Assembly: GCA_949751835.1 (NCBI GenBank)
Contig: CATKHK010000089.1
Coordinates: 1 to 64,000, forward strand
Source of the DNA: Blepharisma japonicum
Lineage: Eukaryota; Ciliophora; Heterotrichea; Heterotrichida; Blepharismidae
DNA length: 64,000 bases
Direction of reading: 5' to 3'
The notes under the pieces were generated by a model. It made no database searches. It was given only the letters and a program-made list of their open reading frames with translations, and had not been told where the DNA came from. Made by a program: the position numbers and the translations under genes. Every line of letters starts with the position of its first letter. Positions within the stretch are counted from its first letter, which is position 1. This document shows, piece after piece, positions 18,035 to 40,156 of this stretch.

Positions 18035-18754
18035 ATTTGTTATAATAGATTTCTGAGTGGAAAAAAATAACGATTATCGCATTGCCATTTCTCTCTTCAA
18101 ATAAAATCATTTTGAACTGGTTTCATAATAGCCAATTAATTTTTAGATTGAATTTAATTTAAAAATACTACAGCTGCAATGAAAATTGTGAATATAAAAA
18201 CAACAAATTTTTGTATATTTATTTAATCACTTGCTCTCCTTCTAATTAAGCTTTTCAAAAAATGATTTAGTTTTATTAATATAATATCCATTACAATTTA
18301 TAAAAAATCATTAATTTGATACATTGTGAATAAATCTTTCAGCATTGCTCTAGTGAGAAATTTAAGTGCCTTAAAGTAAAAAATGGAAATGAAAATAAAT
18401 CTTTCAGCCGTGATATAACTCTCTGATATATTTAAATTGTCATTTTGTTTCTTCAAAAATTAAACTTTTAAAAATTGTTTAAATCCAAAACATTTTAAAA
18501 TAAATAAAAATTAAAATGATGTATAGTCACAGATCCTCGTGCGAAATTTTTTTTTAAAAATTTTTATTATTTTAAATACAGTCATTTTTACCTAATCAAC
18601 ACCTTAATTTAATCAGATTTTATAGAAGTGTCACCATTGCTATTTATCCTCGTAAATAAATGCATTTTTAAAGCTCTCTCAAAAATGCTAATTAGCAATA
18701 AATTATAATTTGTAAGCTATTGCTAGTTACTCTATTACAAAATTGAAAAAAATG
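18035..18754. other. AT-rich intergenic stretch
   Basis: About 700 bp of strongly AT-rich sequence with homopolymer T and A runs and many stops in all frames. No gene or repeat recognised. It ends at the 12-bp target duplication of the retroelement island. Confidence 0.6.
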
Positions 18755-20450
18755 TCTTTGTATTTAGAGGCATTTATTACCGTAATTTCGCGATACCAGG
18801 ATCTCGCAGTGCTCCCAACAATTGACTTTAGGATCAAAAGCCAAGGGTAGCAGACTTGAATGAATTTGGAAAGGACAGGATGCTCTTATGGGAATTCTGG
18901 GCCATAAGAAGGGGAGTTAGTACCACCAGACCTAGCTGGCATTGCTGCTATCACCTGATCATGCTCGAAGTCCCTTGTCTGACCCGACGTGCCAGTATGA
19001 GTTAGTACCGAACTCTAGCTATACCTCATTACTGTGTGGAGCCCAGAGAAGGTGCGGTGACTAGATTAAAGTCTCGACCCAGTAGGTGAAAGATCTCTTC
19101 CAGAAATCTGAGTCTAACTTTGCTGAGTGATCAACAGGAAGTAACTTTCTATTTTAACCTGATTGATGGATTCAAAAGCGTGTTGCAAAAACAAATCTGC
19201 CTTGACTCAACACCAAGGATTGTGTATTTTTGAGACCTCTGATGAGGAAATCGATTACTATGATTATTTTGAAGATGATGGAGAAATTATGGGATTAGAA
19301 GAACCTGAAATTATAGAAATGGATATTGAAATCCTAGAAAATTGGGGTATAACGAAGATGAAACTAGGGAAGCACTGGCCATATGTGGGGGTGATCTGGA
19401 GTGCGCAGTAGCATTACTCGCAGGAACTTCAAAAAGACAAGAAAATTTTGATGATGAAGAAATAATTAATTGGCTGATGGAGAGTCTAAACAGGAAGATT
19501 ATGAAGAATTAGTGCTTAAAGCACTAAGGATAGTAGGAGAAATCCTAGACGATGGAGAAATAGTGCAGGTTCTAGAGAAAGCGAGTTTGGCATTAATTCC
19601 TCTTGCTGCCACGAAGTAAATCAATGCGAAAGCAAACTCAGAAACAAACTCAAAATCAGCACAGAAGGCAATCCAAAAACCATCCTAAAAATCACATCAA
19701 AAGCCAGCTCACAAAAAAACGTAAGCCAACCCAGCCCAAATGCCAACTCAAAATTTGATCTGAAAACCAATTTAAATCGAGAAAAGTTTGTTGATTTGGT
19801 TGCTCCAGATGATGGAGAAAAGAAATATTGTGAGAGGAAAGGAATGGGAATGGGAAGGAGAAGGAGAAGGAAGAGGAGAAATTGAGTTAAGCATGCAGAG
19901 ATGCTAAGACACTTATTAGACATCTAACTGACAATCTGGCATGTAAGGAATGTGAAGCAACTGAAAAGGAAGAGCATATGTTAGTGCAGTGTCCTCTCTA
20001 TGACAGACTGAGAAAAGCTGAAATAAGACTGGAGATTGGAGTAAAAGAACTAGCAAATATTGGACTATTTGACATTTTGCTATGCAGCGAAGAGCAAGAC
20101 GATAATCAGGCACTAAAATATAACTGGCGATATGGAAAGAATAGTGGAGGTAGATAGGGCGATAAAGGCATATCATGTGGAGATTCTAAAGGACAGGGCG
20201 ATCTAGTATCTAGAAGGGAAAGAAAAGCAGGAAAGCAAAGTAAAGTTGAAGAAAAAAATTACTGACTGAATAAAGCATGGTCCATAAGGACCGTTAAATT
20301 GCGACTAGATATAATAGATAGATCAACAGGAAGTAAGAACCGGTATGAAGCCGTGACGCGGAAGAGAAGACGAAGGTGGCAGGCGTACTCTTAGAAGCAG
20401 AGGTTGGCCAAAAGCCCGATGCATTAATCTGATTAAAATCTTTGTATTTA
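18755..20450 (+). mobile_element. Nested retroelement island, outer insert with 12-bp target duplication
   Basis: The direct repeat TCTTTGTATTTA occurs at 18755-18766 and again at 20439-20450, exactly at the edges of a GC-richer block. Removing the inner LINE (19145-20336) leaves an outer insert of about 480 bp (18767-19144 plus 20337-20438). This outer part has no open frame and no recognised protein. Its higher GC content and short A-rich right end suit a SINE-like or truncated LINE copy. The family is unknown. Confidence 0.65.
19145..20320 (+). mobile_element. 5'-truncated non-LTR retrotransposon (LINE), 3' end of RT ORF
   Basis: The direct repeat GATCAACAGGAAGTAA (16 bp) is found at 19129-19144 and 20321-20336 and brackets this block. 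Near the 3' end, 19942-19992 encodes a C-x2-C...H-x4-C knuckle with the E-H-M-L-V-Q-C-P pattern, which is typical of the C-terminus of LINE reverse transcriptases. Downstream is a hairpin (GGTCC-ATAA-GGACC, 20279-20292), then a short TAGATA-type tail directly before the target duplication. Coding frames are broken by several stops and frame changes, and the RT core is absent, so the copy is dead. One 82-codon frame (19163-19411) survives upstream. The plus orientation is set by the zinc motif and the tail. Confidence 0.75.
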
Positions 20451-20460
20451 AATATAAATT

Positions 20461-21270
20461 ATGGAAACTCCAAATCAAAAAAGAAAGATTTCAAAATTGA
20501 GCTGAAAATTTTGCTATTTTGTCTTCATCTTTCTTTATTTTGCTGTAACTCTTATGAAAATTACAACAATCTGCACCAAAAGGTGGTTCAAGCAAGGTGA
20601 AGGCAAAGAAGAGTGAAGCGGCTCACTTTTTGGAATATATTCTTCTGGCGGACTTTATGAGCAAGAATCTTATGCCTGGCTCTCCAATCGCTACTGTGAC
20701 AAGTCAACTATTGAATACATTCCTGGCCAATGTAAAACATTTTCAAATTTATCAAAAGGAGGTGATTTTGTAGTCATACTTAGCTGCATAGAAATTATTT
20801 TTACAGTTGATTTTATAGCTTTTACAATTATTTTTTCTTGCTGCAATAAAACTACTTTATGCTTCAGACTATTTTTTTCCATTTTAGCAGCACTAAGTGC
20901 CTTTATAGAATTCTGTTTTATGGCAGGATTGTCTATGGTGACTTATTCTGATGACTGCGCTCCGGAAGACCCTTCTTCTCAAAGCAACACTTGTGCATTG
21001 ATTGGGGCTCAATTAGACCTGTTTAACTTTTTCTTTACACTACTTGTGTCACTTTTTTTTTGGACTTTTCTTTGTTTGACAGGATGTGAAGAGCGATTAA
21101 ATAAAGATGAAAGCAATGAGAAAGCTCACATAGTTAAGTATAGCAGCAGTGACGTAGCGCCTACACAGGGATCTATTCCCACTGAAATGCGCAATCCAAA
21201 AAAATTCGAAGCATTTGACATCGAATATCAAAGCGTTGAAGGGACAGAAGCTGTGAGAGAACAAAATTAA
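20461..21270 (+). CDS. Four-transmembrane protein, claudin/PMP22-like topology, 269 aa
   Basis: ATG 20461 to TAA 21268-21270, with TGA read as Trp at residues 15 and 52. Four hydrophobic helices lie at about 16-33, 102-127, 133-158 and 186-207. The first extracellular loop (about 70 residues) is long and contains a Trp and several Cys, and the C-terminal tail of ~60 residues is hydrophilic. The layout is that of claudin/PMP22/tetraspan proteins, but no diagnostic sequence motif is clear, so the family is inferred from topology. The start codon lies just 10 bp after the retroelement island, so its 5' region has been replaced. Confidence 0.8.
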
Positions 21271-21776
21271 AGATTATTCCTAACTTAAATTAATTTTGGA
21301 TCAACAGAAATGCTATAGAGGAGTACGCTTGCCTTCAAATTTCTCATTGGCAGTTTCTCACCATAATTTTTTTAGGCATTAAAACTTGATGGACTAATTT
21401 GCTATGTTTTGTCACTTCATTAATTTTCAATAGGTCTACGCTCATTTTGTTAAAATCAAAACCCTCTATTGGCTTCAAACTTGAAATTAAGTAGCTCATT
21501 GCTTTTCAGAATACTATCATAATTTATTAGTAAGTTAAGCAATGAATTTTTAAATACTGCCCAATCGAAATTATATAATTAGCAAAGACACACGAGTTCT
21601 GGAAAAGTTAAACCAATATAGAAACATTAAAATCATTGTATAAAATGGCTTATAGAAAAGATTGATAAATATAAGACCTAAGAAATAATCTTAATCAGAC
21701 AATACCAATGCTTCATAGTGAAGTCATTTATTTGCAATAAGCAAAACAATTTTAAGAGATTAAAATAACATAAAAA
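21271..21776. other. Intergenic stretch upstream of tRNA-Ala 3' end
   Basis: About 500 bp, AT-rich, with stops in every frame. It ends in the T-run that terminates the minus-strand tRNA. No other feature is visible. Confidence 0.6.
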
Positions 21777-21849
21777 TGGAAGACCGGGGTATCGATCCCC
21801 GTGCCTCTTGCATGCTAAGCAAGCGCTCTACCATTTGAGCTAGACTCCC
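21777..21849 (-). tRNA. tRNA-Ala (anticodon AGC)
   Basis: The minus strand folds as a standard cloverleaf: acceptor GGGAGTC against GTCTTCC (one T-T mismatch and one G-T pair), D-arm AGCTC...GAGC, anticodon stem CTTGC-TTAGCAT-GCAAG with AGC in the loop, T-arm with GGGGATCGATACCCC (GATCGATAC in place of GTTCGANTC), and discriminator A. A run of T follows immediately on the minus strand, as a Pol III terminator. There is no intron. A-box and B-box sequences are present within the D and T arms. Confidence 0.95.
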
Positions 21850-21938
21850 AGTTGCAACATTAACCTAAAATTCATTTAAATATATATCCTTTTATGATTT
21901 GTTAATAAAATATATAACTCAATTGCCAATAATCCTAT

Positions 21939-36292: not shown

Positions 36293-36775
36293 TTCAAATT
36301 TAAAATTCGTTAAATATGAAAATCAAGGTTTCCCTCTTATTTTTTGAGTCAAAGTTTTGAATAAGAATTTGTGTGTTTTGGGGTTTCGAGAGGTTTGAGA
36401 AAAAAATTGAAATTCTTATAAAAAATTTAGAAAGAAAACGCAAAAATAAAGGAAAATTAGGACATTTTTGGAATGATAAATTATTGATAAATTTTAGTAA
36501 TAATAAATTAAGAATAGAATTATTTGTATCTGACATTTAATATATAAAATAATTAGTTGATTTCAAAGGATATTTATAAATAATATTGCTATAGGACTTC
36601 TTTAAAGAAATTTATGCTCAGTATTAATTTTAATATTTTCTACTTTAATTTTTATTAAATATCATAGAAATTGATGTTGGACTACTATCAATGGATATTT
36701 TGTGCCTCATACAGGCCTATGGCTTGATGCATCTTTGAATATTTAAAGCAATTAATGTGATTAATTCGTATAAAT
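36293..36775. other. Intergenic stretch between divergent CDK and hexosaminidase genes
   Basis: AT-rich 480 bp that must hold both promoters. A 78-codon minus-strand frame at 36300-36536 is rich in Phe, Asn and Ile and looks like chance. No motif is recognised. Confidence 0.55.
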
Positions 36776-38440
36776 ATGGGAAGACTTAGTACTTTTTATT
36801 TTATATTCGCGACCATACTCCTTTCAAGTGCTAAAACAGTCATGCACAAGGTGTTTCCTATGCCTCAAGAATTCGAAGAAGGAGAAGATATTCTATATAT
36901 TGATCCTTGTCTTTTCGAAATCTCTCACAACCAAAAATTTTCACCAATCGACATTACCCCAATCCTTACTATTTACAAGTCTCGAATTTTTGGTGAAAAA
37001 CTTCACCAATGCCCAGTATCTAGTAGTAATTCTCCATCCCCAAAGCATATTCTCAATATTTATATTTCCGCTCCAATTCAAGAGTACTTCCCATCAAAAA
37101 TTGAATTCACTGACGAAAGTTACTCTTTAGAGATCACTCAGGACTCAACAACTATCCAAGCTAACCAGTATTCTGGCCTGGTCCACGCCCTAGAAACTTT
37201 TTCAAGACTTATTGAGCCTTCCAAGAAAATAAAGAATCATTACGAAATAGAAAATATTCCAATTACTTTACAAGACTCCCCAAGGTTCGCTTATCGAGGA
37301 ATCATGATCGACACTTCAAGACACTATTTACAAGTAAGTACTTTAATGAGAGTCATTGATGGGATGGTCATGGCAAAAATGAGTGTTCTTCATTGGCATA
37401 TTGTAGATGACGATTCATTTCCAATGCAGTCCCTCGCTTATCCAACACTGACGAACTATGCAGCCTTTTCTTCCTCACAAATTTACAACTCAACCCAAAT
37501 CCAGAACCTCGTAAAATATGCGAATATTCGGGCCATAAGAATTATTCCAGAATTCGACAATCCGGGCCACGTTCGTGCTGTAGGCTTAAGTCCGACATTT
37601 TTACCTTTGGTGACTTGCTTTAATAAGCAGTGGGAGTATCAAATGCCAAACGGCCCTTTGATTTATGGAGGGCCACCTACTGGCGCTTTGGATCCTTCTA
37701 ATTCTCAGACTTATACCTTTATCCAAGGGATTTTCCAAGATTTAAATACATATTTCCCTGACTCTTACATCCACCTTGGCGGCGATGAAGTACTTTTCTC
37801 CTGCTGGAGCTCAGTACCTGCAATAGTCAATTTTATGAAAAATAACAATATACCGAACTATAGTGCATTGACTAATTACTATATAAACAAAGCTAGAGGA
37901 GTTTTAACAGCCGTAAATAGTACAAAAACTGCTATTTATTGACTCAATGAAGACACTTTCTATTTGCAAGTGAAGCCTACAGACATTTTGGAATTTTGGG
38001 GTTTTACATCAAACCTCACACAATTGGCGACACTTTATCCAAATAATAAAATTATTGTAGCGACTGGGGATAGGTACTATTTGGACTGCGGAATGGGCAA
38101 TAAGTATGGAGGCGAATCATGGTGTGATCCATTTCATACATGGTGGGAAATTTATATATTAGAGCCAACAGACTATTTAAGCGCAAACCAAATTTTGGGA
38201 GGAGAAGTCACTATGTTTGCAGAGCTTGTTAATGATTTTGTTATTGACTGGAAAATCTGGCCTAGAGCTGCAGCAATGGCACAGAGATATTGGAACCAAA
38301 ATTTGCCTTTGAATTTAACAGGGTTAGTGTCAAGTTTGAATGCTCTGGTAAATTCAATGAATTCTCAAGGAATTGGAGCTGGGCCTATTGATAGTAATTA
38401 TTGCAACTTGAATACCAATATATGCTTTGGGTCTCCATAA
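36776..38440 (+). CDS. GH20 beta-hexosaminidase, copy 1, 554 aa
   Basis: ATG 36776 to TAA 38440, with TGA 37940-37942 read as Trp. A signal peptide (residues 1-20) leads into an N-terminal GH20b domain and the catalytic TIM barrel. The catalytic pair D337-E338 sits in H-L-G-G-D-E-V. The substrate-binding R-G-I-M-I-D-T-S-R-H and H-W-H-I-V-D-D-D-S-F motifs are present, as are W residues lining the pocket. It removes terminal N-acetylhexosamine from glycans or chitin oligomers, probably in lysosomes or food vacuoles. A close paralogue lies 69 bp downstream on the same strand. Confidence 0.96.
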
Positions 38441-38509
38441 GATAAATTAATAAAAATAATAAAAGAAAATTAGCTCCGATTTAGTGTGGAATAAAAATTG
38501 TTTATAAAA

Positions 38510-40156
38510 ATGGGTAAGGGATGGAATTTTGTACTGATTTCTGCAATCCTATGCATTGCAAATGCTGAAAGTGTGAGACATAAAATATTTCCAACTCCGC
38601 GAGAATTTAGTGAGGGCGAAAACGTGCTTGTTTTTGACGCTTGTGAATTTGATATCAAGCATAACCAAGAAAAGGCTCCAATTGATGTGAATCCAATCAT
38701 AAGAAAATACAAATCACGAATTTTTGGGAAATTTTTAGACTGCTCATCTAATTTTCTATCAAAAAGAGTCCTAGAAATTCAAGTTCCATCACTAATCCAC
38801 GAGTATTTCCCAGCTAAAATTGAAGACACTGATGAGAGTTATTCATTAAAAATAACAGAAACAGAAATTATTTTGAGCGCAAATCAGTATTCAGGCTTAG
38901 TTCATGGCCTCGAAACATTTTCAAGGCTTATAAATCCTTCAACTGATGGAAAATACGTGATAGAAAATGTGCCAATTACTATCCAAGATTCGCCGAGATT
39001 TGGCTATAGAGGGATTATGATAGACACAGCCAGGCACTTTATAGGTGCCCAGTCAATAATGAGGGTTATTGATGGGATGGCTATGGCTAAGCTGAATGTT
39101 CTCCATTGGCACATTGTAGATGACGACTCTTTCCCAATGGAATCTCTTTCTTTCCCTAGCCTGGCCAACTACACTGCTTTTTCACTCCTCCAAACCTACT
39201 TAAAAGAAGAAATCCAAAGTATTGTTTCCTATGCAAATACAAATGCAATCAGAATAATTCCAGAATTTGACAACCCAGGACACACAAGATCTTTAGGTCT
39301 TGATCCTTCCTTTAATTCTTTAGTTACTTGCTTTAATACTCATTGGCCCTACTCAATGCCAAGCGGCCCTAAAATTCAAGGAGGCCCTCCTACAGGTGCT
39401 TTGGACCCTTCAAATAGCACTACTTACTCTTTAATTTCTGGGATCTTCCAAGACCTAAACTTCTATTTCCCTGACTCTTACGTCCATTTAGGCGGCGATG
39501 AAGTCATTTTTTCATGCTGGAGCTCAGTTCCTTCAATCGTCCAATTTATGCAGCAAAACAAGATCCAGACCTACCAAGCCTTAATGAATTACTACATAAA
39601 CAAAGCTCGAGGTGTACTCTCATCAGTGAATTCGACTAAAACCGCATTATATTGGCTTAACGAAGCAACATTTTATTTGCAAGTCAAATCAACCGACATC
39701 TTAGAATATTGGGGATTATCAGCAAACATATCAAAATTAGCAACTTTATATCCTAATAACAAAATAGTGATAGCGCCTAGCGATGTATATTATATGGATT
39801 GTGGAATGGGAAATCCGTATGGAGGGATATCTTGGTGTGATCCTTATCATAGCTGGTGGAGTATATATCTTTTAGAGCCAACTCAGTATTTAAGTGCTAA
39901 CCAAATTCTAGGAGGAGAAGTCCCTATGTGGGCTGAACTAGTCAATGACTGGAATATTGATGGAAAAATCTGGCCGAGGGCTGCTGGCTTAGCTGAGAGA
40001 TATTGGAGCCCAAATTCGAAGGTTAATGTGCCTTCACTTGTGACGAGTTTGAATTCACTGATTGTAGCAATGAACACTCAAGGGATAGGCGCAAGTCCGA
40101 TTACTGGGCACTATTGTGAAATCAATGGGAGCTTTTGTTTTACAACACCACCCTAA
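38510..40156 (+). CDS. GH20 beta-hexosaminidase, copy 2, 548 aa
   Basis: ATG 38510 (an upstream in-frame TTG at 38498 is not needed), TAA 40154-40156. A signal peptide (about residues 1-20) is followed by the same domain layout as copy 1, with catalytic D330-E331 in H-L-G-G-D-E-V and R-G-I-M-I-D-T-A-R-H. The two proteins align end to end with long identical blocks and few gaps, so they arose by tandem duplication. Both keep all visible active-site motifs. The main differences are in the N-terminal quarter and surface loops. Confidence 0.96.
   Translation: MGKGWNFVLISAILCIANAESVRHKIFPTPREFSEGENVLVFDACEFDIKHNQEKAPIDVNPIIRKYKSRIFGKFLDCSSNFLSKRVLEIQVPSLIHEYFPAKIEDTDESYSLKITETEIILSANQYSGLVHGLETFSRLINPSTDGKYVIENVPITIQDSPRFGYRGIMIDTARHFIGAQSIMRVIDGMAMAKLNVLHWHIVDDDSFPMESLSFPSLANYTAFSLLQTYLKEEIQSIVSYANTNAIRIIPEFDNPGHTRSLGLDPSFNSLVTCFNTHWPYSMPSGPKIQGGPPTGALDPSNSTTYSLISGIFQDLNFYFPDSYVHLGGDEVIFSCWSSVPSIVQFMQQNKIQTYQALMNYYINKARGVLSSVNSTKTALYWLNEATFYLQVKSTDILEYWGLSANISKLATLYPNNKIVIAPSDVYYMDCGMGNPYGGISWCDPYHSWWSIYLLEPTQYLSANQILGGEVPMWAELVNDWNIDGKIWPRAAGLAERYWSPNSKVNVPSLVTSLNSLIVAMNTQGIGASPITGHYCEINGSFCFTTPP

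Follow-up and report, generated by a model that had tools for sequence, protein, structure and literature searches.

Within a stretch of 64,000 nucleotides from the ciliate Blepharisma japonicum (the window; positions 1-64000 of the 174,347 of contig C89, in a genome of 45.19 Mb and 224 contigs, cited here by such C numbers), a G+C-rich block at 18755-20450 is interrupted by a second, inner block, and each of the two is bordered by direct repeats. A preliminary description had taken this arrangement for a long interspersed nuclear element (LINE) inserted inside another mobile element. In our reading, to which we assign a probability of roughly 0.8, the inner block is a retrotransposon that belongs to a LINE family, is dead and non-autonomous, and would have lost its middle part by internal deletion.

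Architecture of the inner element

The inner element occupies 19145-20320 on the plus strand (1,176 bp; the features described below lie on the same strand unless noted) and is flanked by two exact copies of the 16-bp sequence GATCAACAGGAAGTAA, at 19129-19144 and 20321-20336, with no further exact copies in the 64-kb window. Among exact 16-mer pairs spaced 300-3000 bases in the window there was only one other, at 37.75/39.46 kb, and its source is a pair of tandem paralogous genes (36671-40156) that we take to be beta-hexosaminidase-like. Of 300 Markov sequences modelled on the 4.5-kb region, 6 contained any 16-mer pair, so that chance alone would give one in about 2% of cases. The repeat is firm because both edges of the element are marked independently, the 5' edge by a start shared with other copies and the 3' edge by a hairpin and a tail. 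The 16-bp repeat is a target duplication, and this part of the preliminary description stands as it was given. If all 32 duplication bases are unchanged, the divergence per site accumulated since the element inserted is less than about 0.09 (95%). The longest inverted match between the 40-base ends of the element is 6 bases.

To the left, the border is defined by relatives. A genome search with 18700-20500 returned four matches, i.e. the window itself and copies on C36, C46 and C118, and the similarity of the latter three starts in all cases at 19144-19146, where the target duplication ends. With the C118 copy as query, seven rows were returned, which added three copies on C123 and a match limited to the 3' end at C25:105951. 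In an alignment of seven 5' ends, a short leader is followed by ATGGATTC (ATGAATTC in C36 and ATGGATTT in one C123 copy). In the window, this conserved family start is the leader CTTTCTATTTTAACCTGATTG at 19145-19165, and then ATG. Judged from the alignment, the inner element starts at its own 5' end and not at a point of 5' truncation.

Behind this start lie the remains of an open reading frame (ORF). Its N-terminal part (MDSK...) at 19166-19354 shows 52% identity to the C118 copy (query 1-67, E 1.5e-12). A decayed remnant of a UBA domain follows in another frame at 19348-19425 (42% over 24 residues, E 2e-4), and a Lys/Gln-rich stretch at 19618-19780 repeats the 12-bp periodicity of the C118 ORF, with self-matches at 12/24 bases of 0.48/0.45 in the window and 0.72/0.68 in C118. 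Thus, the ORF of the window copy is frameshifted across several frames, with the N terminus, the UBA remnant and the periodicity still recognisable. The best-matching copies of C46 and C123 also carry UBA-type ORFs with internal stops. Genome-wide, a search for the UBA ORF gave 21 rows at E <=1 on 13 contigs, the weakest of which may be due to chance; 10 contigs had a row at <=0.001.

In the case of C118, the element is preserved (C118:85826-86918; 1,093 bp). It is bordered by a 15-bp duplication, GACTCTTTTGCTGAA, and contains an intact ORF of 351 codons that reaches 25.5 bits with the Pfam UBA family (PF00627), or 27.4 bits with the 157-residue N-terminal part, above the cut-off of 22.4. It would be predicted to encode a UBA-domain protein of ubiquitin-binding type. 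The tail of the ORF is Lys/Gln-rich and built on a 12-bp repeat. A protein model folded without an alignment contains three helices at residues 58-103, weakly modelled in a model that is poor overall (mean predicted local distance difference test score, pLDDT, 51.6; predicted template modelling score, pTM, 0.21). Comparison with the sequences of solved structures gave eight weak matches, the best (E 0.041) to a chain of a ubiquitin-specific protease. Once the flanks of the C118 insert are joined, the host sequence reads as a single open frame, at least 804 codons long, which runs off the end of the locus and which the insert breaks. The 15-bp duplication, together with these flanks that rejoin into one host frame, indicates that the family with the UBA ORF has transposed.

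A separate arrangement was seen on C123 (2500-11500), within a repeat gene that looks tetratricopeptide-like. Besides two decayed UBA elements, this gene contains a third one that is split by a LINE from a different family, with a reverse transcriptase and a CCHC motif recognised by eye, and this is a second nested pair.

The 3' part and its relation to LINEs

The 3' part of the inner element encodes a piece with the motif C-x2-C-x7-H-x4-C (19897-20139), which resembles the C-terminal region of the second ORF (ORF2) of LINE copies in this genome. With this Cys/His piece, 11 other rows were found in the genome at E <=1, seven of them at <=0.001. One of the best matches was to the LINE copy at C25:29812, with 49% over 43 residues in a two-sequence comparison (E 2e-12). 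The C25 copy in turn shares 34% over 159 residues with a copy on C8, which has an RVT_1 (reverse transcriptase) match of 58.2 bits within a 2,258-bp insert between 15-bp repeats; this repeat is A+T-rich and was initially chosen by eye. A second piece of the window element, at 20132-20203, corresponds to the very C-terminal end of ORF2 in the C8 copy (VDRAIKAYHVEIL; 50% over 20 residues, E 6e-5). The LINE ORFs at C25:29500-30500 and C19:89800-92300 show long stretches of short-unit repeats (HIQDM etc.) after the Cys/His motif. Those at C25:29500-30500 reach 30.5 bits with Pfam Pentapeptide_4, below its cut-off of 38.

Upstream parts of a LINE ORF2 were looked for in several ways. None of the 32 RVT_1 rows of the genome (40 candidates scored) lies on C89. 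Apart from zf-RVT at E 0.34, none of nine frame pieces of the inner element matched an endonuclease or reverse transcriptase family at E <=1, and no match at E 1e-3 was obtained with an endonuclease query taken from a different LINE family. Seven of the nine pieces did have some Pfam row at E <=1, all of them below the cut-offs and, apart from UBA and zf-RVT, mutually unrelated. With neither reverse transcriptase nor endonuclease domain detected, the inner element is not an autonomous LINE.

Two other groups of reverse transcriptase sequences should be kept apart from this family. Two of the 32 RVT_1 rows, both on C125, presumably represent telomerase; the match is a 926-residue open ORF (positions 3139-5919 of C125:78000-86400) that we take to resemble telomerase reverse transcriptase and not a LINE. 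Judging by its 5' start, the L038-type LINE family is also separate and has no UBA ORF. Target duplications in ten of its copies besides L038 gave no consistent picture; some repeats of chance size were seen, the longest being 14 bp (L042).

The 3' end proper consists of a hairpin at 20277-20294, with an AUAA loop closed by C-G, and the TAGATA-type tail TAGATATAATAGATA at 20306-20320, which directly adjoins the target duplication. Folding of the window 3' end gave a 7-bp hairpin with this loop (z -1.89). Two hairpins were obtained for C118 (z -2.69) and two weak ones for C25:105951 (z 0.17); the z-scores of the C123b copy and of the C8 LINE were -0.87 and 0.26. When five 3' ends were aligned, 88% of the cells paired and four of five pairs had changed on both sides, while sliding the hairpin partners by 1 to 3 columns gave at most 64%. 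This covariation backs the hairpin, as support and not as proof.

Genome-wide pattern searches show how this end is distributed. The pattern CCATAAGG...ATAGATAGAT occurs at two places, the window and C118, and CATAAG...TAGATAGATA at four (C7, C25:105951, C118 and C161, in five rows); the reversed controls gave 0 in both cases. The window 3' end does not fit the second pattern, as its tail ends differently, and a stricter 3' pattern was matched by C118 alone. Neither C7 nor C161 has a UBA-ORF, Cys/His or RVT_1 row anywhere on the contig. As read from the printed match, the C7 3' end has a clear second hairpin, TTTGCATT GGG AATGCAAA. The 3' end of the C8 LINE looks by eye like that of C123b (AAGGGTTTGCTG), but with a TGA-type tail, and among the copies seen here none combined a reverse transcriptase with a TAGATA tail. 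Altogether, the target duplication, the Cys/His motif, the hairpin and the tail on which the preliminary description had based a LINE-type insertion were all confirmed at their places.

Origin of the inner element

Two features connect the inner element with LINEs: its ORF2 C terminus is shared with a LINE, and the target duplications vary in length as those of LINEs do, measuring 16 bp here and 15 bp at C118 and C8. Calling it simply a LINE, as had been done before, is therefore right for its 3' part, which corresponds to LINE ORF2, but it misses that the element has a 5' end of its own, with a UBA-type ORF that it has in common with other copies.

As the preliminary description implied, such a LINE end could come from ordinary incomplete reverse transcription, which would leave only the 3' end of ORF2. 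A 5'-truncated LINE of this kind would also carry the C-terminal motif, the tail and the duplication, and truncated copies appear to exist in this genome. The C8 copy looks truncated, its 15-bp repeat being followed at once by sequence in or near the reverse transcriptase, and of the C19 copy no more than the end of ORF2 is left. At C19:89800-92300, the start of this 5'-truncated end adjoins a host ORF that seems to resemble 4-hydroxyphenylpyruvate dioxygenase. In the window, however, the first 200 bases of the element correspond to the starts of other elements, none of which was found to contain a reverse transcriptase, and truncation would not yield a copy starting at a 5' end common to several elements. 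We consider simple 5' truncation highly improbable here and reject it for this reason.

Internally deleted derivatives of LINEs keep the 5' and 3' ends of the parent, have lost the middle and are moved in trans. The inner element would fit this type, with the difference that the 5' part kept here encodes a UBA-domain protein. It would have arisen when a LINE lost its internal part, the first ORF (ORF1) of this LINE specifying the UBA protein and the second comprising endonuclease, reverse transcriptase and Cys/His motif; that the parental ORF1 was the UBA protein is what we infer from the derivatives. A related autonomous LINE could then have supplied the reverse transcriptase in trans, with the 3' hairpin and tail of the RNA serving for recognition; this is the simplest reading by analogy with known elements, and insertion would have followed by target-primed reverse transcription. 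The element would thereby have landed in an older G+C-rich block, 10 bp upstream of the predicted start codon of a host gene.

Several observations weigh against this reading. Firstly, a UBA ORF together with endonuclease and reverse transcriptase was found in no copy seen here. Only one of the 13 contigs with a UBA ORF, C123, has an RVT_1 match within a few kb, and that LINE belongs to another family, its similarity to relatives beginning about 30-40 bases past the end of the UBA part. On C19, C132 and C6, the two kinds of match lie about 34 to 670 kb apart. Secondly, the UBA remnant of the window copy stays under the PF00627 cut-off of 22.4, with 14.4 bits (E 0.035) or, when a longer piece is used, 16.3 bits (E 0.0088), and its Cys/His piece matches Pfam zf-RVT weakly (E 0.14 to 0.34), so that the assignment to LINE ORF2 rests on the chain of relatives described above. 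Thirdly, the free-energy z-scores of the 3' ends are weak except for C118, and the hairpin counts derive from five related sequences, two of them decayed. In one of five measures, the further pair types were no higher than in shuffles (319/500), and the second hairpin of C118, C25 and C7 is not evident in the window copy.

The missing two-ORF copy bears on a further explanation, namely that template switching in the course of reverse transcription fused two independent mobile units, an element carrying a UBA gene and a LINE. The UBA ORF would then be a passenger, or a partner resembling a short interspersed nuclear element (SINE), that borrows the 3' end of a LINE and was never its ORF1. This would agree with the genome searches, in which no two-ORF copy was found, and with the C118 copy, which has UBA ORF, hairpin and tail without any piece of ORF2. 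Against it stands the window copy, in which C-terminal coding sequence of ORF2 separates the UBA ORF from the tail; this order is the one to be predicted if a two-ORF element had simply lost internal sequence. We therefore regard a fusion as unlikely, if by no means negligible.

Another possibility concerns the ciliate genome itself, in that one or both blocks could be internal eliminated sequences kept in the assembly, with the repeats as excision boundaries. TA is present in both repeats, and the available part of a study of Blepharisma stoltei reports partial excision at some retrotransposon loci (PMC9942856). Yet target-primed insertion leaves just such a repeat, here of 16 bp and adjoining a LINE-type tail, and other copies carry 15-bp duplications. 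Retained eliminated sequences are thus a very improbable explanation.

In taking the internally deleted derivative as the preferred interpretation, the closest parallels for its 3' end are the stringent-type LINEs, of which eel UnaL2 is reportedly one with a 3' stem-loop. A stem-loop in the element tail is likewise present in zebrafish ZfL2, a stringent-type LINE, and such LINEs recognise their tails, according to the excerpt available of that work (PMC4176376). The window element differs in its AUAA loop closed by C-G and its TAGA-type tail, and recognition by a cognate ORF2 may be proposed only by analogy. The BogoMITE of Blepharisma internal eliminated sequences is, in the excerpt at hand, another set of short non-autonomous derivatives from the same ciliate group (PMC9942856); its parent is a DNA transposon, with the terminal inverted repeats that neither block of the window shows.

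The outer block and the genomic context

The outer block is formed by a left piece of 362 bp (18767-19128, G+C 0.47) and a right piece of 102 bp (20337-20438, G+C 0.50), both defined by composition and without a strand, and measures 480 bp once joined. It is bordered by two exact copies of the 12-bp sequence TCTTTGTATTTA, at 18755-18766 and 20439-20450, as a possible target duplication. In the preliminary description this outer block was itself a mobile element. While the inner insertion is real, the claim is weaker for the outer block, which is single-copy and has no recognisable content; its repeat is exact and placed as described, but a repeat of this length is not rare.

Thus, two readings had to be weighed. 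The block could be an old G+C-rich stretch of host DNA whose 12-bp repeat arose by chance, which would leave our interpretation of the inner element untouched. Such repeats are common in DNA as A+T-rich as this, with a mean of 2.76 pairs of 12-mers in Markov sequences of the 4.5-kb region, and of 8,894 60-mer pairs with this spacing, 35 had at least 12 bases in common. No other copies of the outer pieces were found at the sensitivity of the genome search, and none of six frame pieces (a subset of frames) had a Pfam match. Rfam gave no match in the block, its three weak E-value matches all lying inside the inner element and below the gathering score. Even when up to 2 mismatches were allowed, the outer pieces contained no pol III B box. 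There was no terminal inverted repeat, the longest inverted match of the 40-base ends being 4 bases, and the folding of the pieces did not surpass that of shuffled sequences (z 1.56 and 1.52). On the other side, G+C changes from 0.22 in the left flank to 0.47 and 0.50 in the pieces and 0.32 in the right flank, and both copies of TCTTTGTATTTA sit on these abrupt borders, for which the chance with two random 60-base boundary stretches is 0.00085. The outer repeat is therefore suggestive of a target duplication. Overall, we lean slightly towards the G+C-rich block being itself an insertion, and a host origin is a serious possibility that falls a little short of even odds.

Some identities of the outer block were rejected, i.e. 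a tRNA- or 5S-type SINE (no B box, single copy), a known structural RNA (no Rfam match in it) and a protein-coding piece (no Pfam match in the six frame pieces). ARAGORN with introns allowed returned 139 mutually inconsistent candidates, which were taken as noise; the only tRNA in the window is at 21776-21850. If the outer repeat is a real duplication, its divergence is below about 0.12 per site. Because of the nesting, the outer block is older than the inner element.

A predicted host ORF of 269 residues, read with TGA as Trp and without a Pfam match, lies at 20461-21270. Its ATG begins 10 bp past the outer repeat, so that the nested insertion is located just upstream of the predicted start codon and lies where one would expect the promoter and leader of this gene. 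In Blepharisma, TGA encodes Trp, and it is read in this way in the genes of the window; one hexosaminidase-like gene has TGA where its tandem neighbour has Trp. The window opens with 11 CCCTAACA units at about bases 1-92, which puts a chromosome end at a distance of about 19 kb from the nested insertion; in the accessible part of the published genome description, CCCTAACA is given as the telomere unit of Blepharisma (PMC9942806). Together with TGA as Trp, this telomere supports well the earlier view that the DNA is of ciliate macronuclear type.

The survival of such elements in the macronucleus, which had been considered notable, is less so, since retroelements in the macronucleus of Blepharisma have already been published (PMC9942856, PMC9942806). 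The available excerpts report for B. stoltei 29 RVT_1 genes and three LINE families with negligible expression and partial excision at some loci (PMC9942856, PMC9942806). Its non-LTR (non-long-terminal-repeat) families (LINE, LINE/RTE-X) thus share with our case the presence of LINE-type sequences in the somatic genome, and these excerpts do not mention a UBA ORF, an internally deleted derivative with hairpin and TAGATA tail, or a nested pair (PMC9942856, PMC9942806). The family with the UBA ORF, its 3' end and the internally deleted derivatives look newer in comparison. In the ciliate Loxodes magnus, the best BLAST matches of the LINEs are to B. stoltei proteins, and the excerpt, which we set beside the window element by description only, does not mention a UBA ORF (PMC11441545).

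A literature search for a UBA domain in a LINE ORF1 returned no paper that, by its title, deals with such a domain, which does not by itself show that none has been published. First ORFs of LINEs usually encode RNA-binding or chaperone proteins, and a UBA-type gene in an element of the LINE class looks unusual. At about even odds, we propose a heterotrich LINE lineage whose ORF1 would be a UBA-domain protein with a long Lys/Gln-rich repeat tail, and whose short, internally deleted derivatives with CAUAAG hairpin and TAGATA tail would multiply in the germline and persist in somatic DNA, including within genes. If true, a UBA domain as LINE ORF1 would tie retrotransposition to the ubiquitin system. 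The C118 copy within a host frame and the window copy upstream of a predicted ORF offer concrete cases for studying why ciliates, although they remove germline DNA by editing, keep some retroelements in the somatic nucleus.
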